Shown in pieces: positions 7,417 to 25,997 of a stretch of DNA of 32,843 nt. Position 1 is the first letter of the stretch; each line of letters starts with the position of its first letter. The notes beneath the pieces are model-generated. The model was not told the DNA's origin. It saw nothing but the letters and a program-made list of their open reading frames with translations, and searched no databases. This DNA is from a virus. Position numbers and translations under genes: made by a program. The stretch lies in the IMG/VR virus record IMGVR_UViG_3300025660_000017, positions 1-32,843 of that record. One strand, given 5' to 3'.

Positions 7417-8370
7417 ATGGCATTACAAACTAGTCAACTAACGGCCACCACCAACAAACTTATTGATAAAAAAGTTGTTGACGGTGTCTTTAAGTCAAAC
7501 GGGGCTTACGCTCTACTATCCCAACCGGGAAAAATGAAAATGAGAGATGGAGGGGTAAAACTATCTTTCCCTATCTCAACAGCGAGCGAAGATGACACAA
7601 CTGGCGGCTGGTATGCCGGGAGTGCGGGGCTTGATGGATCTGAATATGATCCTATCACTGACAGTCAACACGATTGGAAGTTTATCTATGAGCATGTAAC
7701 AATCCCTTGGGATATGTTGCTCAAAGCATCAGGGCCAGCTAACCAAGTTGGACTACTTGCGAGTCGTGTTGATATTGCATTTAAGGCCATGGCACACAGG
7801 ATGGGAACAGGATTGCATAATGACGGCACGACAGCCGATGCTTTTATTGGGCTTGATGCCATCATGTCTACGTCGTCAACTTATGGCGGGATCGCTGTAG
7901 CCGACTTTGCGGAATGGATTGCTGCGATCTTACAAGGGGATACCCCCGGAACAAACCAAGCATTGACTCTTGCTCGTATTCAGCAAGCAATGGGAAGCGC
8001 AACAGAAGGACAAGACAAACCCGATTTTGCAATCCTACGTCAAAATGTTTTTAACGAGCTATGGGAATTGTTACAACCCCACCAGCGATTAAGCCACGAC
8101 GAGAATTTAAGCGGGCTTGGGCATAGTGGAGTTCTAAAGTTTAACGGTATTCCTTGGATCGTTGATTCAAAACACAAGGCAAATGCAATCAGCTTTTTGA
8201 ATAGCGACTATTTTTTCCTAGTTGCTCATCCAAAAAAGAATATGAAGCGCGAAAGTTTTAACACTCTTGAGAGTGCTGATGCTTTTAGAACGCGGATTAC
8301 TTTCGGTGGTGCGCTTGTCTGTTCAAACCGACGTTTTCAGGGACGACTTGAAGACATCACAGCATCTTAA
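7417..8370 (+). CDS. Major capsid protein
   Basis: A 317-residue protein straight after the scaffold with a strong ribosome-binding site (CACAAGGAGTTAGAA). It starts MALQTSQLTATTNKLIDK and has a beta-rich middle (GGVKLSFPISTA), a long spine-helix-like segment (VGLLASRVDIAFKAMAHRMG), and C-terminal capsid-like elements (GVLKFNGIPWIVD, FRTRITFGGALVCSNRR). This fits an HK97-fold capsid subunit of the non-cleaved podovirus kind. The gene order portal-scaffold-capsid makes the call safe, although the exact family is not named. Confidence 0.88.
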   Translation: MALQTSQLTATTNKLIDKKVVDGVFKSNGAYALLSQPGKMKMRDGGVKLSFPISTASEDDTTGGWYAGSAGLDGSEYDPITDSQHDWKFIYEHVTIPWDMLLKASGPANQVGLLASRVDIAFKAMAHRMGTGLHNDGTTADAFIGLDAIMSTSSTYGGIAVADFAEWIAAILQGDTPGTNQALTLARIQQAMGSATEGQDKPDFAILRQNVFNELWELLQPHQRLSHDENLSGLGHSGVLKFNGIPWIVDSKHKANAISFLNSDYFFLVAHPKKNMKRESFNTLESADAFRTRITFGGALVCSNRRFQGRLEDITAS

Positions 8371-8381
8371 GGAGGGGTGAG

Positions 8382-8873
8382 ATGAAAAATCTTTTAATTG
8401 TTTTAATTGGGATGCTTTTTACTTTTAACGCTCATGCTTTTGCATTGATCTGTAATAGCGGCAGTGGCTTTGATGGGGCCGGTACTGTTATTAGTGGAAC
8501 CAACGCAAAATGTTATATCAAGATTAAAAACGCTTCTGGCAGCGCCCGTGCGGATGGAGATGTGATGGCGTGGGATATTACCAACGATGGCGGTTACAGC
8601 GTTACTGGCGTAGCAACTGCACTAGTTCCTAGCGCATGTGTCTTTGACGCTGCTTGTGCCGCTGGCGCAGTTTGTAAGTGTCAGGTCTACGGCCAGCATG
8701 ATGCGGTTAAAACTGACGTCGCTAGTGCTACAGTAACAGCGGGCTATGGGTTAGTTCAATCAGGAACGGCGTTCAAGGCACAAGGGGCCGTTGTTGGTAA
8801 CGGCTACTTCGCTATAGCTCTTGATACGTCTGCAGTTAGTGGGACGGTTGAGGCTATGATTAATGCTCTTTAA
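8382..8873 (+). CDS. Secreted cysteine-containing beta-rich protein
   Basis: A 163-residue protein with a textbook signal peptide (hydrophobic residues 3-16, AHA cleavage site after about residue 19). The mature part is Gly/Ala/Ser/Val-rich with several Cys residues (LICNSG, AKCYIK, SACVFDAACAAGAVCKC), suited to disulfides in the periplasm. The ribosome-binding site AAGGAGGGG is strong. It takes the place where a capsid decoration protein might be expected, but decoration proteins assemble in the cytoplasm and would not be exported. It overlaps the O-antigen ligase-like gene by 11 bases, suggesting the two act together on the envelope. Family not recognised. Confidence 0.75.
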   Translation: MKNLLIVLIGMLFTFNAHAFALICNSGSGFDGAGTVISGTNAKCYIKIKNASGSARADGDVMAWDITNDGGYSVTGVATALVPSACVFDAACAAGAVCKCQVYGQHDAVKTDVASATVTAGYGLVQSGTAFKAQGAVVGNGYFAIALDTSAVSGTVEAMINAL

Positions 8874-10089
8874 AAGGGGCAATCTTTACGCTTATTTTGT
8901 AGGAGGGGCCTTATTGGCCCTTCCTTTTTTCGTTAGAGTCTCAAATATAGCTAGTGACATCACTCATAGCAAAAACCTTTTTTTTATATTCATAACAGTG
9001 CTATCGATAGCATTATTTGGGTTCTTTAAAAAAATACCAAAAACATTATCTGTAACGCTAGGGACTATCCTGATCCATGCTTTCGTAAATCAAATGGACT
9101 ACATGCATGGCGCAGTGCTATACCAGTTTATTTGCTTGTGTGCTGGTGCGCTTCTCTTGGCACAATCAACTACAAACTTTAAAAAAGAAGATTCATATAT
9201 TATCCTAAACGCAATGGCCATCACCGCAATTTTGCAGTCATGCTGGGTTTTTGCAGAATATCTTTTCGGGCTAACGTACTCAGATATTTTTAATTTCTTT
9301 GGTGGTGAATATGCCACGGTGACGCACGAGGGGCGTCACATATTGAAGGAAGATCGAGTTATAAGCGGATCACTGGCCAACAGTAATTATAGTGGCGCAT
9401 TACTCGCTATTTGTAGCATTGCACTGCTAAGACGGGGCTGGCGTTGGGTTCTGTCGTTTACTATTGCGGCGCTATTCATGCTAGGGGCAACGCTCCCCGC
9501 TATCTCGTTTTTATTTGGGGCTTGCGTATCTATAGCGTTAAATATGCAAGTAAAAGGGAGCGCTCTTGTCAAAATTATGACAGTAATCGCCGCCATCCTC
9601 GTTGTGATAACACTTACAAGTAGTCGTACAAGTGTTTTCAGGTCTAATTCAAGGGTTACGGCCTGGAACGCGACAATTAAAAATATCTTTATAGGAAAAT
9701 CGGTAAAAGTAGAGATTGATCAGGATAAAAAAGAATCGGTAACGATAGGCAGAAGGTACATTGCAGGCCATGGTTTGGGGTATTTCCCCTCGGTAAGTGC
9801 TGCTTTTATGCCCGAATCGGTAACGAGGAGTGGTAGAGTGTGGAGACAGGCTCATAACGAATATTTGGAGTTCATCTATATATTTGGACTAATTGGGGTG
9901 CTTTACCTGTACTTGCTTTTTAGGCCTCTCTCTCTCTTGCGTTTTCCCGATCCTTACATTGTCGGAGCGTTTGCGGTAACTATTTTCAATAGCAGCGGTC
10001 ACTTTTTGTTCCATATCTCATCGACTGCGTTTATTGGTATAATACTTCTGGGTTTGCTCTACAACCAAACAGGCAGGGAAAACATATGA
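8863..10089 (+). CDS. O-antigen ligase/polymerase-like membrane protein (Wzy_C type)
   Basis: A 408-residue polytopic inner-membrane protein with about ten hydrophobic segments. It carries two Wzy_C/WaaL-like landmarks: SGSLANSNYSG near residue 168 in a loop before a helix, and a large periplasmic loop containing GHGLGYF and ending in RQAHNEYLEFIYIFG (near 327-341). The family transfers or polymerises glycans on undecaprenyl or lipid A-core carriers. In a phage it could alter host surface polysaccharide and block re-adsorption. It overlaps the preceding gene by 11 bases and the adaptor gene by ATGA, so it is locked into late expression rather than being an independent insert. The substrate is unknown. 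Confidence 0.75.
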   Translation: MLFKRGNLYAYFVGGALLALPFFVRVSNIASDITHSKNLFFIFITVLSIALFGFFKKIPKTLSVTLGTILIHAFVNQMDYMHGAVLYQFICLCAGALLLAQSTTNFKKEDSYIILNAMAITAILQSCWVFAEYLFGLTYSDIFNFFGGEYATVTHEGRHILKEDRVISGSLANSNYSGALLAICSIALLRRGWRWVLSFTIAALFMLGATLPAISFLFGACVSIALNMQVKGSALVKIMTVIAAILVVITLTSSRTSVFRSNSRVTAWNATIKNIFIGKSVKVEIDQDKKESVTIGRRYIAGHGLGYFPSVSAAFMPESVTRSGRVWRQAHNEYLEFIYIFGLIGVLYLYLLFRPLSLLRFPDPYIVGAFAVTIFNSSGHFLFHISSTAFIGIILLGLLYNQTGRENI

Positions 10090-11087
10090 GTGATTGGAAC
10101 GGGCTTGCACTTCAAAGCGAATATTCAACAGAGTTAGGCGACACAAGCGCAGCATTTAAAGCGAAAGTGACTAACTGGATCAATGACGGGCTATTCGATA
10201 TTTCCACCCGTCATAACTGGCCTTTTTTAAGAGTAGAGGGGCAAAAGCTTTTTACTGCGAGTGCAGAAGAACAATCGCTACTTGTAACGGCCCCAACTGC
10301 TCCGAGTGTTGCAGCGTCGGGTTCGGGTAATAGCTTAACCGCATCCACTTACGAAGTAGCTATTACTTTTTTGTCTACCACCCTTGGTGTAGAGACAAGA
10401 CTAGGCGCGGTAAGTTCTCAGCAGACTGTCGCCAGTGGGGAGCAAATTGACGTTACGTCAATCCCAATATCAAGTGATTCGGACATTGACCGTCGAAGGG
10501 TGTATTATAGGGACGACACAAATGGAGGTGATTGGTTTCTACATGAGGAGATAACAGACAACACCACCACAACATCTACTATCACAACTGACGCTACAGG
10601 TGGAAGCACAACAAGGCGACCCCCATCATGGGATTACCTGAAAGAAATAGACGGCGACCCGTGGTTCAAGTCAACAGCGCAGAGAGTTTTATCTAATCAA
10701 AGCTTGCAAGAAATATGGCGGCGCGAGTCGGGAAATATCCCAAGCGGCACAGTATCATTTTGGGGCGCAGTAACAAAAGACAAAATCTTAGTTTCCCCCG
10801 ACCCAAGCGCAGCGATTACAGCAAGTTTTTATTTTTTCAAAAACCCCGGAAGAATTTTCGCAGATCGCACACATATTCCGCAATTTCCTTTTAGTATGAA
10901 AGCAGCGCTTGACGAATATGTAAAATGGCGAGGAATGCGTTATCGTGACCGTGACGGTGTAATAGGACAGTTACAAATATATGACGCGACAATTACCAGA
11001 CTAATTAAAGATTATGGGAAAGCAATTAATGTTGTTGGCCGGGTTAGGGATACCATGGGTAATTCTGATGGCCATATCGTAAACTAG
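10086..11087 (+). CDS. Head-tail adaptor with inserted FnIII/Ig-like domain
   Basis: A 333-residue protein. The N-terminal 50 residues (LALQSEYSTELGD, WINDGLFDISTRHNWPFL) and the C-terminal 80 (FPFSMKAALDEYVKWRGM, YRDRDGVIGQLQIYDATITRL) look like the gp4/adaptor family that docks under the portal. Residues about 68-165 form an inserted beta domain (APTAPSV, TYEVAITF, VETRLGAVSS, RRRVYYRDD). The same domain recurs in the next gene. It overlaps the membrane-protein gene upstream by four bases and is followed by the nozzle. The adaptor call comes from order and end motifs. Confidence 0.75.
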   Translation: MSDWNGLALQSEYSTELGDTSAAFKAKVTNWINDGLFDISTRHNWPFLRVEGQKLFTASAEEQSLLVTAPTAPSVAASGSGNSLTASTYEVAITFLSTTLGVETRLGAVSSQQTVASGEQIDVTSIPISSDSDIDRRRVYYRDDTNGGDWFLHEEITDNTTTTSTITTDATGGSTTRRPPSWDYLKEIDGDPWFKSTAQRVLSNQSLQEIWRRESGNIPSGTVSFWGAVTKDKILVSPDPSAAITASFYFFKNPGRIFADRTHIPQFPFSMKAALDEYVKWRGMRYRDRDGVIGQLQIYDATITRLIKDYGKAINVVGRVRDTMGNSDGHIVN

Positions 11088-11095
11088 GATAACTG

Positions 11096-12988
11096 ATGCC
11101 GCTAAGAGGACGATCTACAATAAAAGTTAATAATTTCGATATTAATGTCTCTTATCGTGTAAACGAGGAAAGACTAAGACTAAGGGACGCCGTTAATATT
11201 TTTTCAAATCAAGGGAGGCTTGATACTCGTTTTGGGACGTCAAAATTTAATGCAATAACTCTTGGCAGTAGCGTTTTAAGTCAGTCTTTTTTTAAAACCA
11301 CAGGAGACTCTAAAAAGCTGTTAGCAAAGGCCTCAACTAAGTTATATAGCGTCGCAGAGAGTGGCGCACACACTGAGTTAAAAACGGGGTTAACCTCTTC
11401 AACTGTGCATAGAGCAATCACGTTGAATAATCGCCATATTGTTGCGGTAGAGAGTGACGGGCTGTTCTCATACGACGGCACGACATTCACGCAACTAGGA
11501 CAAGCTGTACCTACAGCACCAACAATAGTAAAGGCGGCGGGCGGCTCGTTAACTGACGCGACCTATGAGGTAGCAGTAACTTTTTACGATTCAACAAACG
11601 GGTTTGAAACGAATATAGGGGCAGCAAGCTCCCAAGCGACAACAGAGACAACAAATAATACTATCGAAGTTAGCGACATTCCAACAGTAGCAGCAAATGG
11701 AAACATTGACAAAGTGAGGGTTTATTTTAGAGATGCATCAACTACCCCGTGGCTTTTTTGGGAAGAGATAAGTCTAGGCACGGCAACGTCTACTATTGAT
11801 GAGGACGCAACTAGCACACAAGTTCCACCAACGAAGAACGCGGCACCAACCGCAGGAGGGGGAAGGTTTCTAACGTCATTTAATCGGAAATTTGTCTACA
11901 GCGGAAACCCTACATTTAAAAATGATGTTTTTTTTAGTGAGCAGGACTTGCCCGATGCTTTTGACGATGGAAGCACGGCCATTAGATTATTTATCCCCGG
12001 CAACGGCGCAGTGACAGGTATAGCGACGGGGTTTTTTAATGATAGCTTACTTGACCCATTTTTGGTTATTTTCAAAAAAACGTCTACTCATATTTACTCA
12101 GAGATTGGAGGCACTTCTCGATTTGCAACGATTAGTAACGAAGTCGGGTGCGTATCAGATCAAACAATTATCGTTAAAAACGGCGCGGTGTACTTCTTAA
12201 GTATCAACGGCTGGCGGGTGATTCAAAACGGGCTTTTTGTAAGTAAAAATAAAAACCCCATTACCCTTAGTGATGGCGACCTTGACGACATATTTACAAG
12301 CCCCGGCTATATCTACGAACTAAACAAGTCGGACTATGGGGCTTTTCACTCCGTTTACTATCCCGCGCTGGATCAATATTTAACATGGGTTTCGGAGGGT
12401 GCAAGTACAGGAAAGACCAAGGCATATGTGTACGAGTTTAAATCTAGTGGCTTTAAGCCTTATAACTTCCCTGTCTCTGCAATATCGTCTACCATGTTCG
12501 AGGACAGTGAAGGAAAAGATATTGTCTTATTTGGCGACGCATCGGGACAGATATATAAACACTCCACAGGCGAGACTAAAAACGATGTCGATAATAACGG
12601 CGCGGCTGTAAATATTGACGCATTTGCTCTTGTTGGCTGGCTTCAAGGGCCTGATGCCGACGCGACGTTCAACTTTAGGGAATTATTATTAAGAGGGTTG
12701 GCCGATGCAGATACGCTCACAGTTAAAGCCTTCTTTAGTTACAATTTGAATGATTCATCGGAACAAACATATCAATTTGTTGACCCCGAATCTGGCTTCG
12801 TTTTGGATATAAGTAGACTAGATGAAGGTATTTTTAGCGACGGGCGCACTCTTGTTACATCAAGAGCGGATATCAATAGAACAGCAGAAAATATCATGGT
12901 AGGATTTTACCAAAATGAAGCAGATGGAAATATAGGACTAATTGCTTTACAATTAGATTTTTCAAAAAATGGCAACAGGAATCTCTAA
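11096..12988 (+). CDS. Tail nozzle / tubular protein
   Basis: A 630-residue beta-rich protein. The N-terminal signature LRDAVNIFSNQGRLDTRFG is typical of podovirus tail tube B/nozzle proteins (P22 gp10 and T7 gp12 analogues), which have a propeller-like fold. Residues about 135-250 hold an Ig-like domain (VPTAPTI, TYEVAVTF, GFETNIGAASSQ, KVRVYFRD) homologous to the insert in the preceding adaptor. The remainder alternates short strands, as in propeller blades. It should form the distal tube that carries spikes or fibres. The gene ends with CTAAGGAGG, which also supplies the ribosome-binding site for the next gene. Confidence 0.78.
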   Translation: MPLRGRSTIKVNNFDINVSYRVNEERLRLRDAVNIFSNQGRLDTRFGTSKFNAITLGSSVLSQSFFKTTGDSKKLLAKASTKLYSVAESGAHTELKTGLTSSTVHRAITLNNRHIVAVESDGLFSYDGTTFTQLGQAVPTAPTIVKAAGGSLTDATYEVAVTFYDSTNGFETNIGAASSQATTETTNNTIEVSDIPTVAANGNIDKVRVYFRDASTTPWLFWEEISLGTATSTIDEDATSTQVPPTKNAAPTAGGGRFLTSFNRKFVYSGNPTFKNDVFFSEQDLPDAFDDGSTAIRLFIPGNGAVTGIATGFFNDSLLDPFLVIFKKTSTHIYSEIGGTSRFATISNEVGCVSDQTIIVKNGAVYFLSINGWRVIQNGLFVSKNKNPITLSDGDLDDIFTSPGYIYELNKSDYGAFHSVYYPALDQYLTWVSEGASTGKTKAYVYEFKSSGFKPYNFPVSAISSTMFEDSEGKDIVLFGDASGQIYKHSTGETKNDVDNNGAAVNIDAFALVGWLQGPDADATFNFRELLLRGLADADTLTVKAFFSYNLNDSSEQTYQFVDPESGFVLDISRLDEGIFSDGRTLVTSRADINRTAENIMVGFYQNEADGNIGLIALQLDFSKNGNRNL

Positions 12989-12997
12989 GGAGGATAT

Positions 12998-13879
12998 GTG
13001 CGCACATTAATTATTTACTTGATATCGGCTACATGGGGGATTGCTGCACTTGCGGGAACTTGCACAAGCATCTCTCGCACCAACAATTCTGCAAATACCG
13101 TACTTACTTCGACAAAATACAATGCGGATCTCAATACAAGCTATTCGAATCAAAACGCCTACGATCTTGGGTGTGGCACTGATGGCACTCTTGAAAAGAC
13201 AGCACTAGACACAACGGATTTTACCGTTCCTCTCAACTATTTTAAAGATGGGTGTAAAGTAATTAAATCCACCGCCGCCGCCCTCACGATTGAAAAGTGC
13301 GTTATGGCCATCAACGGGGAGTGGCTACAAACAACGGCAGGGACGAGCGCGACTTGGGGCTGTTCGGGGTGCGCCAGTGAGGCAAATTCTACTGAATATT
13401 ACATCTATGCAAAAGACGGTTCGACGGGCGCGACTCTAACGCCGTTAATAAGCACGACAGCACCAGATTCCGATGGGTATAGTTCGGGCAACAAGATACT
13501 AGCAAAGTTCTATAATAACGGTAGTGGCGACATTGTTGATAGAATCGCTATGTGGAATGGGTATGCATTTAATGACAGAGAAATTTTCTCTGCAAGGATC
13601 GATAATGACGGCACGGCCACAATAACCGGCCAGACGGGTACGTGGATATCGAGTGTTAACCGACCATCTTTAGGACAAGTAGAGGTTAATTTCGTGACAG
13701 GCTTATTTACCGTTATCCCGTCATGCTCCCCTGTCTCTGCCGGTTCTAGTGAAATCCAGTGCAAAACTATTAGCGTAACAACGTCAACATGCCTCGTTCT
13801 TTGCGAAAACCTTGCGGGGGCCAATGTTGACAAGAATTTTGCTGTCACGGCGGGGCGGCTTGGTGCAGATGTATGGTAG
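12998..13879 (+). CDS. Tail-fibre-like protein with N-terminal signal peptide
   Basis: A 293-residue protein read from GTG 12998; the nearby ATG 12996 frame stops after four codons. AAGGAGG lies four bases upstream. Residues 1-20 look like a signal peptide ending in AALA. The mature start (NNSANTVLTSTKYNADLN) is a motif common at the head of phage tail-fibre and tail-needle-like proteins. The rest is beta-rich with Cys pairs (WGCSGCAS, PSCSPVSAGSSEIQC, TSTCLVLC). The position after the nozzle fits a receptor-binding or distal tail protein, but the signal peptide is odd for a virion part assembled in the cytoplasm. Confidence 0.65.
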   Translation: MRTLIIYLISATWGIAALAGTCTSISRTNNSANTVLTSTKYNADLNTSYSNQNAYDLGCGTDGTLEKTALDTTDFTVPLNYFKDGCKVIKSTAAALTIEKCVMAINGEWLQTTAGTSATWGCSGCASEANSTEYYIYAKDGSTGATLTPLISTTAPDSDGYSSGNKILAKFYNNGSGDIVDRIAMWNGYAFNDREIFSARIDNDGTATITGQTGTWISSVNRPSLGQVEVNFVTGLFTVIPSCSPVSAGSSEIQCKTISVTTSTCLVLCENLAGANVDKNFAVTAGRLGADVW

Positions 13880-13896
13880 ATATAAAAGGAGCTTTT

Positions 13897-14241
13897 ATGA
13901 AGGTTTTAATTTTAATTATAGCTTTGGCCGCGAATACCGCCTTTGCGAATTTTGTCTCGCTATCAGGGCATAATTCCGGTTCCCCTGCAGTGTATGCAAA
14001 AAAGGAAAAATGTAAAAAAGCGGAAGGAGAGGTCTGCTACTTAGTACCCAATGGATATAATGTTAATTATTACGCAAGTAGGGCTGGGAAGTTTGAAGTA
14101 GTGCCAGCGCTAAAAGCTAGTCACAATGCTTTGCGGGCAAAAGAAAAAAAAATGAGGGATGATTTGCAATCTGAGATTCGGGCATATGATTGCGAGAAGT
14201 TAACGGGGTTTATCAATCTACTTTGCAAGAGGTATAAATAA
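13897..14241 (+). CDS. Small exported protein
   Basis: A 114-residue protein. I prefer ATG 13897 (AAAGGAGC upstream) over the in-frame ATG 13873, because it exposes a clean signal peptide (MKVLILIIALAANTAFA). The mature part has two Cys near its start (EKCKKAEGEVCYLV) and two near its end (YDCEKLTGFINLLCKRYK), plus a charged helix between, suggesting a disulfide-stabilised periplasmic protein. Its stop overlaps the next start by one base (TAATG). Unknown family. It could act on the envelope, like the secreted protein after the capsid gene. Confidence 0.7.
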   Translation: MKVLILIIALAANTAFANFVSLSGHNSGSPAVYAKKEKCKKAEGEVCYLVPNGYNVNYYASRAGKFEVVPALKASHNALRAKEKKMRDDLQSEIRAYDCEKLTGFINLLCKRYK

Positions 14242-14561
14242 TGTATCTAAAATATCTAAAAGAGCGCGAAAACATGGATGCAATACAGACGCAACATGGC
14301 CTTGTCTTATATAAAATCGAGGGGAGCTTGGTTCTTATTGCAGATATCTACATAAAACCAGAAGTTAGAGGCGCAAAAAAAAGTTTTACGCTTGCTGATA
14401 TTGTTCTGGCTAGGGCCAAAGCTAAGGGCTGCACGGGTGCTGTTTGTCAAGTCGATACATCGGCGGGCGGGGTATCGCAGTCAATCGCTATTATTTTAAA
14501 GTATGGGTTCGTCCCTAGCGGTGCTGATGGCGGGCTAGTCTTTTTTACAAAAGAGGTGTGA
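14241..14561 (+). CDS. GNAT-like acetyltransferase-fold protein
   Basis: A 106-residue protein with GNAT-like order: a strand segment (LVLIADIYIKPEVRGA), the R/K-rich pyrophosphate-binding position degenerate (RGAKKS), a helix (FTLADIVLARAKAKG), a strand (TGAVCQVD) and the late ILKYGFVPSGADGG element typical of motif B. It is shorter than a full GNAT enzyme (about 150 residues). T7-group phages carry a small GNAT-like gene near internal virion genes, and this position matches. It may be a virion-assembly factor rather than an active enzyme. Start ATG overlaps the previous stop; the later ATG 14274 (residue 12) is an alternative. Confidence 0.55.
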   Translation: MYLKYLKERENMDAIQTQHGLVLYKIEGSLVLIADIYIKPEVRGAKKSFTLADIVLARAKAKGCTGAVCQVDTSAGGVSQSIAIILKYGFVPSGADGGLVFFTKEV

Positions 14562-14562
14562 T

Positions 14563-15183
14563 ATGGGAAGGGCGGTAAGTAGCATAGGAAGGGCAGTAGG
14601 GGGCGTACTTGGGGGCGCGGGAGATGTTCTCTTTGGTAAAAAAGTAACAGAGGGCGGGGAAACAGCAAGTCAAGCGGCACTAAATCAGCTTGCATTAAAA
14701 CAGTCGAAAGAAGCGGGAAAACTTCGAACACTAGGCTTTAAGCGCTTAAGAGCAGAGGTAGGACAAGATCCTAGCGGTATAGTGGCGGCACAAGTAGGAA
14801 GAGAGGCATCGGCAACAAGAGCGGGGCTTGCTGATGCACAGCGACGCTTGCAAGGTCTTGTTGCTCGCAGGGGATTGGGGCAATCGTCAATCGGCTTAAG
14901 TCAAGAGGTAGGATTGCAAAGAAGAGGGGCGCAGCAACTTGCAGAACTTCAAGCGTCAATCCCTGAGAGACAGCGAGGATTTAGACAGCTTCAAACTCAG
15001 CGCTTGTTATCAGCAGCGGGCGGGCGACAAGGATTTACCCCATTTCAACCAAAAAGAACAGGAAGGAAAGGCGGGCTTGCACCATTGATCGGCGCAGGAA
15101 TAGGTTTTGCAGCTACCGGCAGTCCTGCCGGGGCGCAATTAGGATTAGGCATAGGACAAGCTGCACAAGGTTCATTTTCATAG
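14563..15183 (+). CDS. Internal virion / DNA-ejection protein, small
   Basis: A 206-residue protein. The Gly-rich N-terminus (SIGRAVGGVLGGAGDVLFGK) is amphipathic. An Arg/Ala/Gln-rich helical middle follows (ASATRAGLADAQRRLQGLVARRG), then a Gly/Ala hydrophobic C-terminus (PLIGAGIGFAATG). This composition is typical of ejection proteins that leave the virion and line the host envelope (P22 gp7/gp20/gp16 group). It is the first of three consecutive genes of this kind. Confidence 0.65.
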   Translation: MGRAVSSIGRAVGGVLGGAGDVLFGKKVTEGGETASQAALNQLALKQSKEAGKLRTLGFKRLRAEVGQDPSGIVAAQVGREASATRAGLADAQRRLQGLVARRGLGQSSIGLSQEVGLQRRGAQQLAELQASIPERQRGFRQLQTQRLLSAAGGRQGFTPFQPKRTGRKGGLAPLIGAGIGFAATGSPAGAQLGLGIGQAAQGSFS

Positions 15184-15192
15184 AGGTATATT

Positions 15193-16158
15193 ATGGCCGG
15201 TTTTGATGAGTTTAGACAAAGACAACAACAAATGGGTTTCCAGAATATCCTTGGAGGACTAAAGAGCTTCCAACAACAGGGCCAGCGAGAAGAAACTGAG
15301 AGGCAGCGGGCTTTTGAAGCACAACAAAAGTTTGATGACGAACAGACAGCACTCGCCAATAGGCAGCTATTCGCGAAACAACAGGCCGCCGAACAAAGAG
15401 CTTTCCAGACAGAACAAAAAGCACTTGATAGGAGACTTCGAGGGGAGGAGTCTCGGATTAAATCAAGTGAAAGCCGAGTAGAGCGTGAAAGGAAAGAGGG
15501 GGCGTTGTTTACTGCGGGGCAAAAAAAGATCCGTAGATCACTCACAGGAAAAAGAGACAAGATAGTTAAAGAATTTAAAGATATTGACCGGGTTTTTGGC
15601 AATGTTGATTCCTTTGCTGCAAAATTTAACAGAGGCGAGGATCTAACAGCGTCCGACCAGTTCCAACTAATTCGGTCAATCGTCCCTCTTGCTGAGATTA
15701 ACCCCGGCGTTGTTAGGGGTGAAGAATTTGAGACTGCAAGATCACTAGGTGGTAAGATTGGGGAGATTCAGGTCAGATTTAACAATTTAAGAAAAGGAGA
15801 GTTGCTTCCCCGCAAGGTCATTAAAGAGATGCTGGACACTACAAACACTATGAGGGACGTTGTGGTAAGAGGAAAAGAGGGCCGGTTCTCTGACTTATTA
15901 GAAGAGACACAATTTGAAGGGTTGAGCGAAAAAGATCAAGATGTCGTTCTTGGTGGTAGTGGCAGAACAATTTTAGAAACGATGCGCAATAAGTTAGCAG
16001 CAAGAGAACAAGAGCAGTTAGAGCAACAACAAGCGGCGCAATCGAACCAGAGATTTTTCGCCGGGCTAGGTCAATCAGCTATCGCCGCACCCCCTCCACA
16101 ACTAACACCTAAACAGCTCCGATTTTTAGAGCTTCAACAAAAAGCGGCGGGTAGATAG
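15193..16158 (+). CDS. Internal virion / DNA-ejection protein, coiled-coil
   Basis: A 321-residue, strongly helical protein rich in Gln, Arg, Glu and Ala. Residues about 20-105 look like a long coiled coil (QREETERQRAFEAQQKFDDE), with a middle helical domain and a Gln-rich end (EQEQLEQQQAAQ). Ribosome-binding site TAGAGGTATATT is modest. It lies between two other ejection-type proteins and abuts the next start. The assignment rests on composition and position. Confidence 0.65.
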   Translation: MAGFDEFRQRQQQMGFQNILGGLKSFQQQGQREETERQRAFEAQQKFDDEQTALANRQLFAKQQAAEQRAFQTEQKALDRRLRGEESRIKSSESRVERERKEGALFTAGQKKIRRSLTGKRDKIVKEFKDIDRVFGNVDSFAAKFNRGEDLTASDQFQLIRSIVPLAEINPGVVRGEEFETARSLGGKIGEIQVRFNNLRKGELLPRKVIKEMLDTTNTMRDVVVRGKEGRFSDLLEETQFEGLSEKDQDVVLGGSGRTILETMRNKLAAREQEQLEQQQAAQSNQRFFAGLGQSAIAAPPPQLTPKQLRFLELQQKAAGR

Positions 16159-17940
16159 ATGGCACTAACAGCGGCAGAGTTGGCAGAACTCCAAGCATTG
16201 CAAAATGATCCGGAGATTGCTGCGCTTCAAGCCCCACCACAAGCTGCGCCCGTTCAAGCGGGGGGGTTAACGCCGGAAGAGGCGCAAGAGTTAGCACTGC
16301 TTCAAAACGATCCAGAAGTCCAGCAATTCCAGCAACAACAGCAACAACAGCAACAACCTCAAGCTACAGGTTCGGCGGCAGAAACGGCAGAGGCGGCAGT
16401 TCAAGGGTTTGGACAAGCTGCAACACTGGGGTTTTTGCCTCAAATCCAAGCGGCAGCAAGTCAGATTTTACCTGACCCATCGGCTGGTGTTGACGAAGAG
16501 TTGGCAGCACAAGGGTTCAACATTGAACAAGATCCTGAGACATATACACAAGCAAGGGATGCGTTTATAAGAAGAAACGAGCGACTTGCACAGGAAAGCC
16601 CTATCGCATCAACAGCAGGGCAAGTTGCAGGCGCATTAACAACAGGGATAGCGGCAGGCGGGGCGGGGGCATTAGTTAAAGGTGCCTCACTTGCTAAACG
16701 AGTAGGTGTCGCCGCCCGAACAGGGGGGCTGTTAGGCTTTTTGGAAAATCCGGGCGATACAGAAGGAGAGATTAACCCTTTACAGATCAGAGAAAGGTTA
16801 GAAGGCGCGGCGATAGGGGCGGCTACAGGTATAGCAACGCAAGGAGCGCTTGAAAGTGTGGGCGGCGTAGGTAGAGCGATAAAGTCACTCCCTGATACTG
16901 TAAAAAATTTCTCTGAGTTAAAAGCTGTGAAAGCATCGGGCGCAATGCTCAAAGATTTTAGAAAGCTTTTTGACAAAAACCGAGCGAATAAAGCGGGGCG
17001 TTTTTTACTTGATAAAAAAATCGTCCAAGCTGGCGACGACGTAGAGCGGATTGCGAAAAAAGTATCGGCGCTCAAAGAAGAAACAGGGAAAGAGCTTGGC
17101 GATATTTACGCAAAAGTCAATGATGAATTACTAGACCGCCGCATTATTGATAAAATGTCAAAAAATCAACTAGCGAAGATGCTGGACACCTCGTTAAATA
17201 TGGAAATTGTCGCGGAAGACATTAGGCGCTCAATAGGGAAAGCGCTACAAGGAAAGCCCGGAGCAAAAGCGGTGTTATCCCGTGTTGGCGACGAGCTAGA
17301 TACACTGGCGACAAATGGCACTAATTTAAATGTGAAAGAAGTTCATCAGATACGACGGGGCTTTGACGATTTGATTAACTTTGACAAGGTGAGTCGTGAT
17401 ACACCATTATTACAACAGCAATTTATCAAGATAAGAACCGAGTTAAATAAAAGGATACAAAAAAGATTAGGGTTTTTTGATGATGTTTTCGGAAGTCAAA
17501 AAGCCAAAAAGTTGCGTCAATTAAATGACGAATTTTCCACCCTCGCCGAAATAGATAAAATATCGGCAGACAGAATAGCGAGGGATAACGCAAATCAGGC
17601 GTTTGGATTGAGCGAGAAACTAGCAGGGGGCGCAACCCTCATTACAGGTACAGCCGTTGGTGGGTTGCCGGGCGGGGTTGCACTAGGTTTAGCAGGTTCA
17701 TTCGGCGCAAAAGCCCTTCGAACGTACGGCAATGCTGCAACCGCAAGCCTTGGAAACAAACTGGCCCGAACGCTTGCAAATAATCCATCACGGCTAGGCA
17801 ATGAAGGCTTAAAACTAATCGAAGCAGCGAGGCAGTCACCCCAGCAATATATGGTAATATTACAAGAGCTGCTAGTCGATCCTGATTTTAAAAAGAGTGC
17901 AGATAGAGCGGCGCAAGATAGGCGCAGGGGTTTGAAGTGA
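16159..17940 (+). CDS. Internal virion / DNA-ejection protein, large
   Basis: A 593-residue helical protein. Two short repeats near the N-terminus share LxxLQNDPE (residues about 10-20 and 46-55). A glutamine run follows (about residues 56-65). The middle has hydrophobic Gly/Ala segments (TTGIAAGGAGALVKG, AAIGAATGIATQGA) able to insert into membranes, and the C-terminal half is charged and helical with another glycine-rich segment near 495-525. It fits the large ejection protein of P22-like phages. The ATG follows the previous stop directly, and the last bases overlap the next GTG start. Confidence 0.7.
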   Translation: MALTAAELAELQALQNDPEIAALQAPPQAAPVQAGGLTPEEAQELALLQNDPEVQQFQQQQQQQQQPQATGSAAETAEAAVQGFGQAATLGFLPQIQAAASQILPDPSAGVDEELAAQGFNIEQDPETYTQARDAFIRRNERLAQESPIASTAGQVAGALTTGIAAGGAGALVKGASLAKRVGVAARTGGLLGFLENPGDTEGEINPLQIRERLEGAAIGAATGIATQGALESVGGVGRAIKSLPDTVKNFSELKAVKASGAMLKDFRKLFDKNRANKAGRFLLDKKIVQAGDDVERIAKKVSALKEETGKELGDIYAKVNDELLDRRIIDKMSKNQLAKMLDTSLNMEIVAEDIRRSIGKALQGKPGAKAVLSRVGDELDTLATNGTNLNVKEVHQIRRGFDDLINFDKVSRDTPLLQQQFIKIRTELNKRIQKRLGFFDDVFGSQKAKKLRQLNDEFSTLAEIDKISADRIARDNANQAFGLSEKLAGGATLITGTAVGGLPGGVALGLAGSFGAKALRTYGNAATASLGNKLARTLANNPSRLGNEGLKLIEAARQSPQQYMVILQELLVDPDFKKSADRAAQDRRRGLK

Positions 17941-19373
17941 AATTGATCTTGCTTATATTATTATCAGTTATGGCGGGGGTATCTTTTGCTGCAGGCCCTA
18001 TCCAGTTTACAGATGAAAGCGGCGGCAATCCTTATGGGATTAGACAGACAGATAACGAACCTCACGTTAGAGCGAAAATTGTTAACTCATCTGATACTAT
18101 TATCGATCTAAATGTTAATGAATCTGGACAATTGAAAGTAGTTCTTGACGGGAAAGTTAGCTCTATAAACTCAACATCTACGCTATTAACCAGCGGCGCA
18201 GTTTTCACAGGCACGGGAGAGGAAACGCTAGACTATGCAATGATTTTTGTAACCGTTTTTGCAGACACGGCAAGCGCAACAGATGGACTAATGACCCAGG
18301 TTAGTAGTGATAACCTGACTTGGCGTGATAGCGATTCCTTTACAATCCCTGCGTCAACTGAAAAAACTTTTTCCTTTCAGACAAACAAGAAGTATTTTCG
18401 GATTAAATATACTAATGGCACTTCGTCGCAGGGCGTTTTTGATCTTCACACCGTTTTTAAAAAAACCAACTCTAAGCCATCAAGTCATAGAATTGCGGAT
18501 ACTATCTCTCCACAAGATGACGCAACACTCTCAAAATCGGTACTAACCGCGCTAAATGATAATGGAAATTTTACTAATATCAATGCAACAGCTTCTAATA
18601 ACTTAAAAGTTGCTAACGTCGAAAACGGACTCGCCATAGCGAAGGGTGATGTATCTGGATCGACACTGCTTCATAAGTTTGGAGATGCTCCTGATTTCGA
18701 TATTAGTGACGGCTTTGTTACTATATGGGATGGCGCGAATGACGGCGGGATAAATGCCATGGCATACACTTACTCTGCGACTGCCGATATTACACAAGTC
18801 TCATCGAGTAATGCGGCAGACTCAACCGAAACAGAAGTTCAAGGGCTTGACTCTAGCTATGAATTGACAAACCAAACAGTAACGCTAAATGGCCAAAACG
18901 CCGTACTTCTCCCCACGCCGCTTATTCGAGTTTTTCGCGCAAAAAATGAAAACGGGACAGTATTTCTTGGTGATATTTATATCAGTACGTCAGGGGCCAC
19001 ACTATCATCAGGAGTACCAACCGTAGTAACCGAAGTTAGAGCAGTAACAAGAGCAGAACACCAGCAGACATTAATGGCCATCTATACCATTCCCGCCGGG
19101 AAAACGGGTTATATGCGCGATTGGTTTGTTTCAGCATCGGGCGCAAAGAAAAACTCAGCGCACCAGATCCACCTCGCTGCAAGAAAATTCGGCGGCGTTT
19201 TCCAAACGAAACACGTATCAAGTATCCAGACTGATGGGACAAGTTATATCCAACATAAATATCAAGAACCGGAGGTTTTCGCAGAGAAAACGGACATAGA
19301 AATGCACGCTAACACCGACTCGGATCAAGCGGGAATTGCGGCGGGGTTCGATATTGTATTGATAGATAATTAA
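17937..19373 (+). CDS. Phage structural beta-rich protein with signal peptide
   Basis: A 478-residue protein starting at GTG 17937, overlapping the previous stop (GTGA). Residues 1-18 form a signal peptide ending SFA. The C-terminal half (from about residue 240) resembles a domain common in phage virion structural proteins: TIWDGANDGG, TVTLNGQNAV, GDIYISTSGATLSSG, TLMAIYTIPAGKTGYM, GFDIVLIDN. The N-terminal half is a separate beta-rich module. It ends the structural block before the lysis genes and may be a distal spike or fibre, or a secreted decoy. The signal peptide is the unusual part. Confidence 0.7.
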   Translation: MKLILLILLSVMAGVSFAAGPIQFTDESGGNPYGIRQTDNEPHVRAKIVNSSDTIIDLNVNESGQLKVVLDGKVSSINSTSTLLTSGAVFTGTGEETLDYAMIFVTVFADTASATDGLMTQVSSDNLTWRDSDSFTIPASTEKTFSFQTNKKYFRIKYTNGTSSQGVFDLHTVFKKTNSKPSSHRIADTISPQDDATLSKSVLTALNDNGNFTNINATASNNLKVANVENGLAIAKGDVSGSTLLHKFGDAPDFDISDGFVTIWDGANDGGINAMAYTYSATADITQVSSSNAADSTETEVQGLDSSYELTNQTVTLNGQNAVLLPTPLIRVFRAKNENGTVFLGDIYISTSGATLSSGVPTVVTEVRAVTRAEHQQTLMAIYTIPAGKTGYMRDWFVSASGAKKNSAHQIHLAARKFGGVFQTKHVSSIQTDGTSYIQHKYQEPEVFAEKTDIEMHANTDSDQAGIAAGFDIVLIDN

Positions 19374-19593: not shown

Positions 19594-19791
19594 ATGGCCC
19601 TTAAATCTATTGTTATCCCCCTTGTTACAGCAGCAATCCTCGGTTGGATCGGTTTTACATTTGCAATAAGCGGAGATGTTGCTACACTAAAGGAGAAAGC
19701 TTCTCACACTGAGAGGCGTTACGTTGAGATAAACAGGAAGCTTGATAGGTTGATCTTTTATATTATGAGAAAAAACCCCAAGCATCAGTAA
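19594..19791 (+). CDS. Small membrane protein, lysis cassette
   Basis: A 65-residue protein with one hydrophobic helix (about residues 5-25, IVIPLVTAAILGWIGFTFAI) followed by a charged helix (LKEKASHTERRYVEINRKLD). This N-terminal anchor plus coiled-coil design resembles hemolysin XhlA-like or i-spanin-like phage proteins next to holins. It precedes the holin candidate and the spanin pair, so involvement in lysis is likely though unproved. Confidence 0.65.
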   Translation: MALKSIVIPLVTAAILGWIGFTFAISGDVATLKEKASHTERRYVEINRKLDRLIFYIMRKNPKHQ

Positions 19792-19802
19792 GGAGAAAAT
19801 CA

Positions 19803-19985
19803 ATGGAAGCAAAAAAACCTTATTACAGCAAAACACTAATCACCAACCTACTCATGGCGATTGTTGCTTTTTTCCCACCCGTGGAGGAATTTGTTGTCGC
19901 TAACCCAACTATTTTTATCTTTCTATTTGCTGCTGTAAATATGGGACTTCGTTTGGTCAGCAAAAAAGAGATCGTTTTTTACTAG
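19803..19985 (+). CDS. Holin candidate
   Basis: A 60-residue protein with two hydrophobic segments (about 13-27, LITNLLMAIVAFFPP, and 34-50, NPTIFIFLFAAVNMGLRL) and charged ends, the topology of a class II holin. AAGGAGAAAATCA gives a strong ribosome-binding site. The spanin pair follows immediately. Holins release or activate the endolysin, here an Amidase_3 enzyme encoded on the opposite strand at 20400-21077. Confidence 0.65.
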   Translation: MEAKKPYYSKTLITNLLMAIVAFFPPVEEFVVANPTIFIFLFAAVNMGLRLVSKKEIVFY

Positions 19986-20192
19986 ATGATAATAGTAAAA
20001 ATATTCGAAATCTTACGCATTATCAAGTGGCTTGTCACTCTCGTTATGAATTGGGAGAGTGGACAAGCCGCCAAGCGGTTACGGGAATTAAAAGAACGCC
20101 GTGCCGTAAATATCCAAAAACTAAAAGAGGCAAAAACGAATGAAGAACGCCGCGCCGCTCTTGATGTTATTTACGATTCTGATTTTATGTAG
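19986..20192 (+). CDS. Inner-membrane spanin (Rz-like)
   Basis: A 68-residue protein with an N-terminal membrane anchor (IIVKIFEILRIIKWLVTLVM) and a highly charged alpha-helical remainder (AAKRLRELKERRAVNIQKLKEAK), the i-spanin layout. It is short compared with lambda Rz (153 residues), which is common in small phages. Its last 53 bases overlap, in another frame, the start of a lipoprotein gene. This overlapping arrangement is the hallmark of Rz/Rz1 pairs. Together they would fuse inner and outer membranes in the last lysis step. Confidence 0.75.
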   Translation: MIIVKIFEILRIIKWLVTLVMNWESGQAAKRLRELKERRAVNIQKLKEAKTNEERRAALDVIYDSDFM

Positions 20193-20403
20193 CTGTAGAT
20201 CAGGGGGGTATCGCGTCCCTAAAACGGAGTTATGTATAATCGGGGAAGATGTTTGTAGCTGCCGCTATGGTCGGAAAAAATATGATCGACCATGGGAAGA
20301 GTGCTTAAATTATACAGCGACCAACCCCGACGACTATAAGCAACTTCGGGATTGGGTGGATGACAAGCTAAACGATCTGCGCCGCTGTAAACGCAGAAAC
20401 TAA
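20140..20403 (+). CDS. Outer-membrane lipoprotein spanin (Rz1-like)
   Basis: An 87-residue protein with a hydrophobic N-terminus and a lipobox-like LILCSC near residues 15-20, predicting lipidation and outer-membrane anchoring. The mature part contains extra Cys residues (ELCIIGEDVCSCRYG, EECLNY, LRRCKRR). It starts inside the i-spanin gene in another frame, supporting an o-spanin role. Its stop codon overlaps the stop of the convergent endolysin by four bases, so the two main transcription units meet here. Confidence 0.75.
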   Translation: MKNAAPLLMLFTILILCSCRSGGYRVPKTELCIIGEDVCSCRYGRKKYDRPWEECLNYTATNPDDYKQLRDWVDDKLNDLRRCKRRN

Positions 20404-21077
20404 ATAGTCACTGATTTAATTATTGCTCTTGCTAAAATATCTGCAAATCGTTCGTCATCTTCAAATATTGCTCTACTCTCTTCGTTTTCATATTTAGCGA
20501 AACATGGTTCAATTAAAACAGATGGGATAGACTTCTTTCTCATTGCATTTAGCATCCCATAGCCGTTGTGCCGACTCTTTATGACCTTAACGCCGTCTTT
20601 GCCTCGTTCTTTTATCCCTAACTCTTCATTAAGAAAATCAGAGAATATTTTAGCAAGTTTATTGTCTAGGTGATCGCTTGTGTCAATGATTAGATTTTCA
20701 ACCCCCCGTGCGTTACGTCCTGCCGAGTTAAAATGGCAGAGAACCACTATGTCTGCGTTCCATAGTTCTGCCTTACGGGCTGAGTCGCGGCACTGTGTTG
20801 AATAACCTACTGTTGCCGCTCTATCAATCTGCAGTGTTACAAATTTACCCGGCGCAAGCGTATGGATTTGACGCTTAACTTTTGGAATTATTCGTCCGTA
20901 GTATTCCCACTCACTTTCGCCTTTGTAATTATCAGCACCCTGTTTTTTTTGAGTATGCCCCCTACCAAGCGCCACTCTCACTGTTTGGCCTGTCTCTGAA
21001 ATCGGTTCTATGGCGGGCGTTTGGTTTACTGGCTTTTTCCCCTTCGCTTTTACTTTTGCTAATCTAAAACATTTCAT
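20400..21077 (-). CDS. Endolysin, N-acetylmuramoyl-L-alanine amidase (Amidase_3)
   Basis: A 225-residue zinc amidase that cuts the bond between muramic acid and L-Ala in peptidoglycan. The Amidase_3 ligands are visible: H41 in GRGHTQ, a Glu at 54 or 56 in GESEWEYY, H115 in VVLCHFNSAG, and catalytic E190 in LIEPCF. The first 30 residues are a basic Pro-containing linker without a signal peptide, so release would depend on a holin. AAAAGGGGAAT gives a ribosome-binding site. It is the last gene of the leftward operon, opposite in strand to the holin and spanins, which is unusual for lysis genes. Confidence 0.88.
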   Translation of the reverse strand: MKCFRLAKVKAKGKKPVNQTPAIEPISETGQTVRVALGRGHTQKKQGADNYKGESEWEYYGRIIPKVKRQIHTLAPGKFVTLQIDRAATVGYSTQCRDSARKAELWNADIVVLCHFNSAGRNARGVENLIIDTSDHLDNKLAKIFSDFLNEELGIKERGKDGVKVIKSRHNGYGMLNAMRKKSIPSVLIEPCFAKYENEESRAIFEDDERFADILARAIIKSVTI

Positions 21078-24249: not shown

Positions 24250-24374
24250 TGCTCCCCCCGTTTTAACAGAACTTCATTTTTAAGCCTATCTAGCCTCGCT
24301 CTTTCGTTGTGATAGTTTTTCCAAAAGTGCCAAGATAAAAATATTAAATATGCGGTTAAAATTGCTCCGATCAT
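24246..24374 (-). CDS. Small membrane protein (42 aa)
   Basis: ATG 24374 overlaps the exonuclease stop by four bases (ATGA). The 42-residue product has an N-terminal hydrophobic helix (MIGAILTAYLIFLSWHFW) and a charged helical tail (NERARLDRLKNEVLLKRGE). Single-span topology with an amphipathic tail. Function unknown; coupling to the recombination genes and to the following ORF supports it being translated. Confidence 0.5.
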   Translation of the reverse strand: MIGAILTAYLIFLSWHFWKNYHNERARLDRLKNEVLLKRGEQ

Positions 24375-25057
24375 ATCTTTGCCCATTGGTCGCCGAAACT
24401 AAATCCCCTGCTTTTTAATTTTTGATCCATTGTTGTGATAAATTCTTTTGATGCCTCGTCAAGTAGCGCCGCTATCTTCTCGTCCTTTTCGACTAGCTTC
24501 ACATGTAACACGCTCTTTGTCATCCGGGGATCATAGCTTGCAAAGTACCACGATTGCGCATCAGTCACCCACATTGAGAACTGGATCTGCTTTATATATT
24601 CGCTCTTAATCGTATCGTCAAAAAGAAAATCAATATGCACCTTAGATGTTTTCGGGCATTTTATTTCAACGCCGGGAAGCGCTGCTATCGCATCAGGACT
24701 GCACCCAATTCGCAACCCCGTATCTTTAAAAATAAAAGGGAGGGTGTAGGTATCAATACCAGTGTGAAATTCAAAAGCGGATAGCGCCGCTGGTTCGTTA
24801 TCATGCCCCCAATCCATCGATGCCGATGATACGCTATTGCTTTTACCTGTGCAGACTTCCGCAATTAACTCATTCATATAAGTTTTATATTTTGCTGTTT
24901 TAACTCCTGCTAAGAGACAATCGGCTTTTGATGCTGTTAAAACGCCGTGGCGCATAGACAACCATTCGTCGCTCCCTTGCGATATTTCAGAAGGATCGAA
25001 ACCAAAAACCGACTCAAGTTTTTTTAGGTCGTCCATGTGTTGTTGCTGTGTTTTCAT
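24371..25057 (-). CDS. YqaJ/lambda-type exonuclease
   Basis: A 228-residue PD-(D/E)XK nuclease of the YqaJ viral recombinase family, a 5'-3' dsDNA exonuclease. Visible motifs: SDEWLSMRHGVLTASKAD near residues 28-45 (the R...G.TAS element), a WGHDNEPAALSAFE helix near 84-97, then the catalytic D...EIKCPKTSK segment (GCSPDAIAALPGVEIKCP, about 118-135) and IQFSMWVT with the last catalytic Gln. It follows RecT by 13 bases and works with it: the nuclease makes single strands that RecT anneals. AAAAGGGGCAGGG gives a ribosome-binding site. Confidence 0.88.
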   Translation of the reverse strand: MKTQQQHMDDLKKLESVFGFDPSEISQGSDEWLSMRHGVLTASKADCLLAGVKTAKYKTYMNELIAEVCTGKSNSVSSASMDWGHDNEPAALSAFEFHTGIDTYTLPFIFKDTGLRIGCSPDAIAALPGVEIKCPKTSKVHIDFLFDDTIKSEYIKQIQFSMWVTDAQSWYFASYDPRMTKSVLHVKLVEKDEKIAALLDEASKEFITTMDQKLKSRGFSFGDQWAKI

Positions 25058-25070
25058 CCCTGCCCCTTTT

Positions 25071-25997
25071 TTATTGATTATATTGTTTTAAAAAGCTTAT
25101 ACAATAATTAACCTCATCGGCGTTCAGGTCGTCGATATTTTCAACTACTCTTCGGTATTTCGCCTGGCAGTGACCCAGTAAACGCTCGGTGCTTGATTTG
25201 CCGTCCTTCTCAGGGATTTGAGTTAGTGCATCGACAAGCATTGTCATTGCGGTTTCAGAGGGGGGGGTCACATCACGCTCGCCATTGTTAATGCTCTCGT
25301 ATCCCTCTGATTCATTGGCGACAAGAATCGCCTCGTCCAATCTTTTTGTGCGGTCAGATGCTGGCCATGTTTTCGCTGCCCGCTTGATAACTGTTTTCTT
25401 AATCATCTCTCTTTCGTCGCTGCTCCCTGCCACCGCCCACGGTCCAGACTTTCTCTTGTATGCCTCTGACTTGTTTCTAATCTCGTAGATATCTTTGATA
25501 GACATAACTGTCGTCAAGAAGTCGCCTTCATTTGTTTTTGCTGTGCAATATGCACCCACTATTTCGCCCCTGTCGTTTGAGAAAGAGTCTCTTTTGTGTG
25601 TGGGGCGCTCACCGATTCCGTTGTCAATAAAGTCATCGTTTTTAAAGACAACTTCCGCCACAACAAAAGAGATCGATCCGGCATCAGTTGCCAACTTCAA
25701 TAGTCCTCGGTAGCTAATGTCGAGGCATACTTGCCCTTTGCGTGGAAGCAGGTAGCAATGACTAGATGCTGGGTTTAGAGATAGCCCGATAGATGCTACA
25801 TTCATAATCGCCGCTTGTACGCTTTGCGGTTTTTGGATTGCTACCTTCATTAAAAAATCATTTTTAGATAATAGGTCAAGCGCAAAAAAAGATTCCTTTT
25901 TAAATGTTACCGCGTCATGTGTTATTGCGATTTCATTAAATGCCTGTTCTTTTACTTTTAAAATTTCTTCACACTGTACTACTGGTAATTTGTTCAT
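25071..25997 (-). CDS. recT: RecT-family single-strand annealing protein
   Basis: A 308-residue protein of the RecT/Redbeta group. The family core is visible: a LSLNPASSHCYLLP element (residues about 73-86), followed by CLDISYRGLLKLATDAGSI (92-110) and the later DIYEIRNKSEAY, GPWAVAGSSDEREMIKKTV, IKRAAKTWP motifs (about 168-215). It binds ssDNA and promotes annealing in phage recombination and concatemer formation. AATAGGAGACAAAAA gives a strong ribosome-binding site, part of which is the end of the upstream frameshifted gene. Paired with the YqaJ exonuclease. Confidence 0.9.
   Translation of the reverse strand: MNKLPVVQCEEILKVKEQAFNEIAITHDAVTFKKESFFALDLLSKNDFLMKVAIQKPQSVQAAIMNVASIGLSLNPASSHCYLLPRKGQVCLDISYRGLLKLATDAGSISFVVAEVVFKNDDFIDNGIGERPTHKRDSFSNDRGEIVGAYCTAKTNEGDFLTTVMSIKDIYEIRNKSEAYKRKSGPWAVAGSSDEREMIKKTVIKRAAKTWPASDRTKRLDEAILVANESEGYESINNGERDVTPPSETAMTMLVDALTQIPEKDGKSSTERLLGHCQAKYRRVVENIDDLNADEVNYCISFLKQYNQ

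Follow-up and report, generated by a model that had tools for sequence, protein, structure and literature searches.

Tailed phages are taken to assemble in the cytoplasm up to lysis. The window analysed here, a complete IMG/VR-type viral record 32,843 bases long, contains four genes (A, B, C and D) within its virion block whose products begin with predicted Sec signal peptides. This locus raises the question of what export signals are doing on components of such a particle, and whether the proteins that carry them belong to the virion or to the host envelope.

A reading of the open reading frames (ORFs) together with family searches places the virion block in the left half of the window (Table 1). 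No tape-measure gene was seen in this block, and thus the particle is likely podovirus-like. Other regions of the window hold features of separate interest. Several minus-strand ORFs between 21719 and 24211 have ends in common (MKLDRELK... and ...EIILE) and enclose 12-nt repeats rich in Ala/Trp/Ser (SAAWSAERSAAWSA), an array that looks like duplicated repeat proteins. A YqaJ exonuclease and RecT annealase pair occupies 24371-25997 on the minus strand. The ORF at 31700-32503 matches the TET-associated glycosyltransferase family (PF20691, E 2e-35), which suggests modified bases in the phage DNA.

Table 1 Features of the virion block and lysis region (SP, signal peptide; single numbers are gene positions).
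Feature	Position	Strand	Remarks
Terminase	1677		
Portal	4402		
Acidic scaffold-like gene	6398		
Major capsid protein (MCP)	7417..8370	+	No SP; upstream neighbour of A; phrog_9953, E 6e-43
A, predicted capsid decoration protein	8382..8873	+	Sec SP (codons 8382-8438); 163 aa; 6 Cys (24, 44, 86, 92, 98, 100)
WaaL/Wzy_C-superfamily membrane glycan ligase	8863..10089	+	Start overlaps end of A
Connector gene	10086		
Connector/tail hub protein	11096..12988	+	No SP; phrog_8040, E 1e-14; family marker
B, tail-fibre-family protein	12998..13879	+	Sec SP (codons 12998-13054); 10 Cys
C, small Sec-signal protein	13897..14241	+	114 aa; 4 Cys; directly downstream of B
GNAT-like gene	14241		Follows C
Ejection-type genes	14563/15193/16159		Between GNAT-like gene and D
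D, putative receptor-binding/tail protein	17937..19373	+	Sec SP (codons 17937-17990); no Cys
Lysis region	19594..20403	+	Small membrane proteins 19594, 19803, 19986; o-spanin-like lipoprotein 20140 (LCSC lipobox, overlaps 19986)
Amidase endolysin	20400..21077	-	No SP; Pfam Amidase_3, E 7e-15

IMG/VR was searched for relatives with two alignments, one of the 11096 protein and one of the fibre N-terminus, and a tree was built on the 11096 connector/tail hub protein. The signal-peptide trait is common to a whole lineage of lytic podovirus-like phages, represented by about 35 distinct IMG/VR contigs (designated by L numbers) and one MAG contig. A genome scan with TerL recovered one family member, L036, in a Myxococcales MAG (taxon assigned by binning); a scan with Hc2 recovered none, and the MCP alignment was too divergent for use in this search. 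Searches against 'phages' gave no match with megablast for 12 kb of sequence or with tblastn for Hc2, B and the ligase; tblastn matches in this set were restricted to D, some large spikes and B proteins of the collar type. PADLOC produced no match, and the tRNA clue to a host consists of a single Ser tRNA, present in L018 only.

Signal peptides in the virion block

The four ORFs singled out in the preliminary description were all present, with Sec-type signal peptides at their N-termini. In each, a basic n-region is followed by a hydrophobic core and by small residues at -3/-1. With a slash marking the predicted cleavage site, A begins MKNLLIVLIGMLFTFNAHA/FALIC, B (GTG start) MRTLIIYLISATWGIAALA/GTC, C MKVLILIIALAANTAFA/NFV and D (GTG start) MKLILLILLSVMAGVSFA/AGP. 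The sequence AAGGAGG precedes the starts of both A and B, and AAAAGGAG precedes that of C, an ATG at 13897 within the ORF 13873-14241. At D, the start overlaps the end of the upstream gene in a GTGA that couples the two, and AGGGG precedes it. True starts downstream of the hydrophobic stretches, a possibility raised earlier, are unlikely; in B, the stretch just after the signal peptide offers no usable start.

Signal peptides were called with an in-house rule based on h-region hydropathy, n-region charge and the residues at -3/-1. Applied to the remaining gene families of the block, the rule gave a false-positive rate of 1.9% (4/215), each of the four being an amphipathic extension of MCP or scaffold. 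No signal peptide is present on the packaging, portal, connector or ejection proteins. The A signal peptide is kept in all 30 relatives (28/28 distinct contigs plus L144 and L148) and that of B in 32 of 33 (29/31 by the rule, L029 by eye, and L144 and L148), the exception being L036. Mean identity across the B signal peptide is 26.5%, compared with 54.2% in the first 50 residues that follow it; by this measure it is the property, rather than the letters, of the signal peptide that is conserved. A simple motif scan of A-D in the window found no lipobox. A few relatives of B have a Cys near the cleavage site (e.g., AYAAC in L034), where a superinfection-exclusion lipoprotein is a possible reading.

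Hydrophobic leaders are also found on MCP and scaffold genes of some relatives. MCPs of a subclade (L128, 219-1229; L129, 244-1266; L023, 5294-6316; L030, 7122-8156) have an N-terminal leader that ends in CEAG/CEVG/NESG/DETG just before the usual MCP start of the family ((M)ALTYGQ), and scaffolds of L018 (4182-5249), L021 (4117-5178) and L014 (1403-2440) have a similar leader (FLKLVLGNERG). The leader looks like a shared, possibly cleaved prosequence.

The preliminary description assigned tail-like domains to two of the four proteins, which is right for D and for the family of B. The N-terminal part of B follows the pattern SISRTN..ANTVLTSTKYNADLNT, and its C-terminal part is variable. The window copy has no significant family match of its own; the L034 homologue ends in a tail-collar domain (phrog_523, E 2e-33) and has fibre homologues in hundreds of cultured phages. 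By way of this homologue, B is fibre-like. The fibre of phiM6 was considered as a cultured example with a signal peptide and rejected; the match, from query residue 3, lies inside a 506-aa fibre that has none. D matches phrog_8198 at E 2.6e-40, and its C-terminal half matches cyanophage proteins that carry tail fibre or virion structural protein annotations. Neither of the two cyanophage homologues examined starts with a signal peptide, and the IMG/VR homologues in L001 and L002 lack one too. Large proteins with signal peptides follow the ejection genes in L026, L027, L028 and L035, and the one in L028 (710 aa) matches Streptomyces phage tailspikes. Against a general rule of export, D has no Cys and the large proteins at this position in L016 and L029 lack signal peptides, which indicates that export is not strictly required for receptor-binding candidates.

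Small proteins with signal peptides (103-122 aa) occupy the slot of C in L012, L021, L030, L115, L127, L128 and L129, so that, with the window, eight phages encode such a protein immediately after the fibre. The similarity between C and its counterpart in L012 is weak (pairwise E 4e-5). This recurrent position fits a periplasmic partner of an exported fibre, and C is possibly a partner or chaperone of B.

Cysteine pairs, predicted folds and a membrane ligase

Conserved cysteines were claimed for three of the four proteins, and A, B and C do contain them. After residue 20, Cys makes up 2.8% of A and B as against 0-0.86% of other virion proteins, apart from the small GNAT with its 2.88%. The Cys count of mature A is even in 28/28 copies and, judged from total counts, in L144 and L148. 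Such parity is absent in MCP (11/33) and the connector (13/32). Covariation was computed within A and B and cytoplasmic proteins were compared by parity only, so the argument for disulfides rests on the contrast within A and B.

Pairs of Cys in these families are gained or lost together. Counting copies with both, one or neither residue, uncorrected for shared descent and with pairs lost in scattered members, A gave 25/0/3 for positions 86-100, 17/0/11 for 92-98, 4/0/24 for 24-44 and 5/2/21 for 63-77. For B, the counts were 30/0/1 for 22-59, 25/0/6 for 86-101 and 24/3/4 for 122-125, where the three mismatches are copies with an unrelated C-terminal part. The 22-59 pair is present in all 30 copies with a signal peptide, and L036 has neither residue. 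This covariation strongly suggests disulfide bonds in A and B, and it lends the periplasmic life once deduced from conserved Cys much firmer ground.

Structural prediction indicates a role for A. A model from AlphaFold2, built from 21 family members (mean pLDDT 81.8), depicts mature A as all-beta without a membrane helix. Residues 39-163 of the model match capsid decoration proteins, and the signal peptide falls outside the match. The top match is to HFTV1 (8qsy; Z 14.2, rmsd 2.5 over 111 residues). Further fold matches include FCWL1, T1, the phi29 prohead and gp8.5, Sf11, Pam3, TW1 and lambda gpD, and many decoration proteins match at Z 9-11. At the level of sequence, 2 of 21 members weakly matched the head decoration family phrog_122 (best E 7e-4); the window copy gave no match. 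The A gene lies directly after MCP in all 30 carriers, and no other decoration gene was seen in the slot behind MCP. A is thus predicted to be a capsid decoration protein.

The preliminary description was right in its inventory of four genes with signal peptides and overlooked the conserved, WaaL-like polytopic membrane protein encoded at 8863, whose gene separates A from those of the connector. Pfam Wzy_C (PF04932) was found in 19 of 21 members of this ligase family (best 2e-13), and the window copy alone falls below the curated cut-off. Its AlphaFold2 model matches WaaL (7tpg) with Z 21.0. R264 and H331 are invariant in the family; Arg and His are the kinds of residue named as functional in WaaL and PglL (PMC3643930). 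None of the 21 members contains PglL_A (PF15864). TfpO also lacks this domain (PMC12645811), and therefore the ligase may belong to a non-PglL class of O-oligosaccharyltransferase.

The ligase and A occur together in 29 distinct contigs, and the ligase never occurs alone. Neither gene is found in five contigs, which represent three independent positions in the tree. Perfect linkage was rejected on the evidence of L148 (7285-7948), the one contig that has A without the ligase. Because adjacent genes can go in one deletion, this linkage is no more than suggestive. For protein-specific O-oligosaccharyltransferases, a gene position beside that of the acceptor is common (PMC12645811), which makes glycosylation of A a natural hypothesis. 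It is tempting to speculate that, in the periplasm, the ligase attaches a lipid-linked glycan of the host to exported A, and perhaps also to B; released particles would then carry outer proteins stabilized by disulfides and coated with host glycan. We hold this extension to be doubtful. The rival possibility is that the ligase modifies the host surface glycan instead of A.

Proposed two-compartment assembly and its alternatives

We propose, as the probable explanation of these features, that this lineage builds its particle from two compartments and that exported outer parts join it at lysis. The DNA-filled head, the connector and the ejection proteins would be made and assembled in the cytoplasm. 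A, B and often a large receptor-binding protein (here D) would be made with Sec signal peptides and translocated; after cleavage by signal peptidase I they would fold, with disulfides, in the periplasm, where exported C might assist B. Opening of the envelope by holin, endolysin and spanin would bring the cytoplasmic particles into contact with the exported proteins, and the particles would then be decorated and fitted with fibres. The signal peptides argue strongly for translocation of A, B and D; cleavage and disulfide formation would follow from signal peptides and Cys through the biology of Sec, signal peptidase and Dsb. For joining at lysis, we infer a chemically plausible step, since late addition to finished particles works in vitro for lambda gpD, T4 Soc/Hoc and the P22 tailspike. 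Presumably the two compartments would mix at lysis. Within the lysis region, which has holin-like and spanin-like genes, a Cys-rich, lipoprotein-like ORF (LCSC) overlaps that of a short membrane protein whose helix is charged (19986-20403); the two are a probable nested spanin pair.

In this lineage, signal peptides have been both gained and lost by homologous virion proteins that retain their original N-terminus. L036, which belongs to the family by its TerL, MCP and 11096 protein, has neither A nor the ligase. Its fibre gene has an in-frame stop upstream, and the product begins MSDSPISRSNFSANSVLTST and lacks both a signal peptide and the two N-terminal Cys (22/59); no signal peptides were found in the rest of its virion block. 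In the tree, L036 is nested among phages with signal peptides, next to L018 (100/99). All of these features are present in L144, the closest relative of L036 (61% in the 11096 protein): it has A and the ligase, and its fibre bears both the signal peptide and the Cys pair. On this placement, L036 is a reversal in which the fibre signal peptide, both Cys, A and the ligase were lost. A search of IMG/VR with the L036 Hc2 for more kin without signal peptides found none, and a search with an alignment returned L144 and L148, both of which have them. The opposite change is seen in hd90, a head-block gene of about 90 aa that lacks a signal peptide in 21 of 23 phages and has one only in L008 and L126. 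Predicted cleavage of the fusion restores the usual N-terminus (SFA/AFSATKQ compared with (M)AFSATLK), by which the hd90 of these two phages is a signal-peptide gain.

The preliminary description had left two options: action on the envelope by blocking or decoys, or addition of virion parts after export or during lysis. The second is now the better supported, by the decoration fold of A, the tail-fibre families of B and D, and the gain and loss of signal peptides around a kept N-terminus; the first has lost ground. If the exported proteins never joined the virion, they would serve at the host envelope as receptor blockers, surface coats or decoys against superinfection or debris, with the ligase remodelling the surface glycan. 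Phage-encoded surface modification is a known strategy, and both the signal peptides and the O-antigen ligase superfamily member adjoining A are in keeping with it. We regard this as unlikely in view of the decoration fold of A and its constant place in a slot with no rival occupant. Moreover, envelope action does not predict fusion of a signal peptide to the head gene hd90 that leaves the rest of its N-terminus as it was. The ORFs scanned include no integrase, so there would be no lysogen to protect.

The hydrophobic N-termini might also be uncleaved membrane anchors that tether assembly or insert at infection, and the MCP and scaffold leaders of the subclade, which lack typical cleavage sites, indicate that membrane-tethered assembly may exist. 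The leaders of A and B differ in having signal-peptidase-I-like sites where the mature homologue starts, the match of A to decoration proteins excludes its leader, and the covarying Cys pairs point to an oxidizing compartment. Anchoring is therefore very unlikely for these proteins. The least likely of the three alternatives is that oxidation to disulfides waits until lysis has released the proteins into the medium, and that the signal peptides have an unrelated use such as timing or sequestering fibres. Cys pairs by themselves are silent on the time of oxidation; the joint loss of signal peptide and Cys pair in L036, and the retention of both in L144, fit a single compartment for the two.

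Relation to known systems

If assembly in two compartments is correct, the route would be new; the individual protein families are already known. Part of a tailed virion would be finished in another compartment through Sec routing of a capsid coat and host-binding proteins, opening disulfides, and perhaps glycans, to these phages. The proposal predicts cleaved N-termini, periplasmic pools and undecorated capsids before lysis, and L036 and L144 provide a natural experiment. Should the ligase act on A, the phage would bring its own machinery for glycosylating virion proteins. A search of the open-access literature found no tailed phage with exported virion proteins.

A resembles decoration and cement proteins (lambda gpD, the phi29 gp8.5 base, TW1, Pam3 and HFTV1) in its predicted fold and in the position of its gene directly after MCP. 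It differs from them by its conserved Sec signal peptide and covarying Cys pairs; to our knowledge, no decoration protein is made with both. B (through L034) and D belong to the same sequence families as tail-collar and fibre proteins and cyanophage tail proteins, respectively. Unlike B and D, the phiM6 fibre and the cyanophage homologues of D that were examined have no signal peptide.

The ligase shares the Wzy_C domain, the WaaL fold and the invariant Arg and His with TfpO/PilO, PglS, PglL and WaaL. Like pilO beside pilin and pglL/pglS beside comP, its gene stands beside that of an exported protein (PMC3643930, PMC12645811). It differs from this group in that it has neither PglL_A nor Wzy_C_2, lies in a phage head operon and has a putative acceptor. 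Filamentous phages offer the nearest parallel to the signal peptides themselves: the coat proteins pIII and pVIII of M13 (G3p, PMC8310372) are virion proteins with Sec signal peptides, inserted or exported ahead of assembly, as A, B and D are predicted to be, with conserved -3/-1 sites. Filamentous coat proteins are membrane-anchored and extruded without lysis, whereas the present lineage consists of lytic tailed phages with a lysis cassette, and mature A is modelled without a membrane segment.
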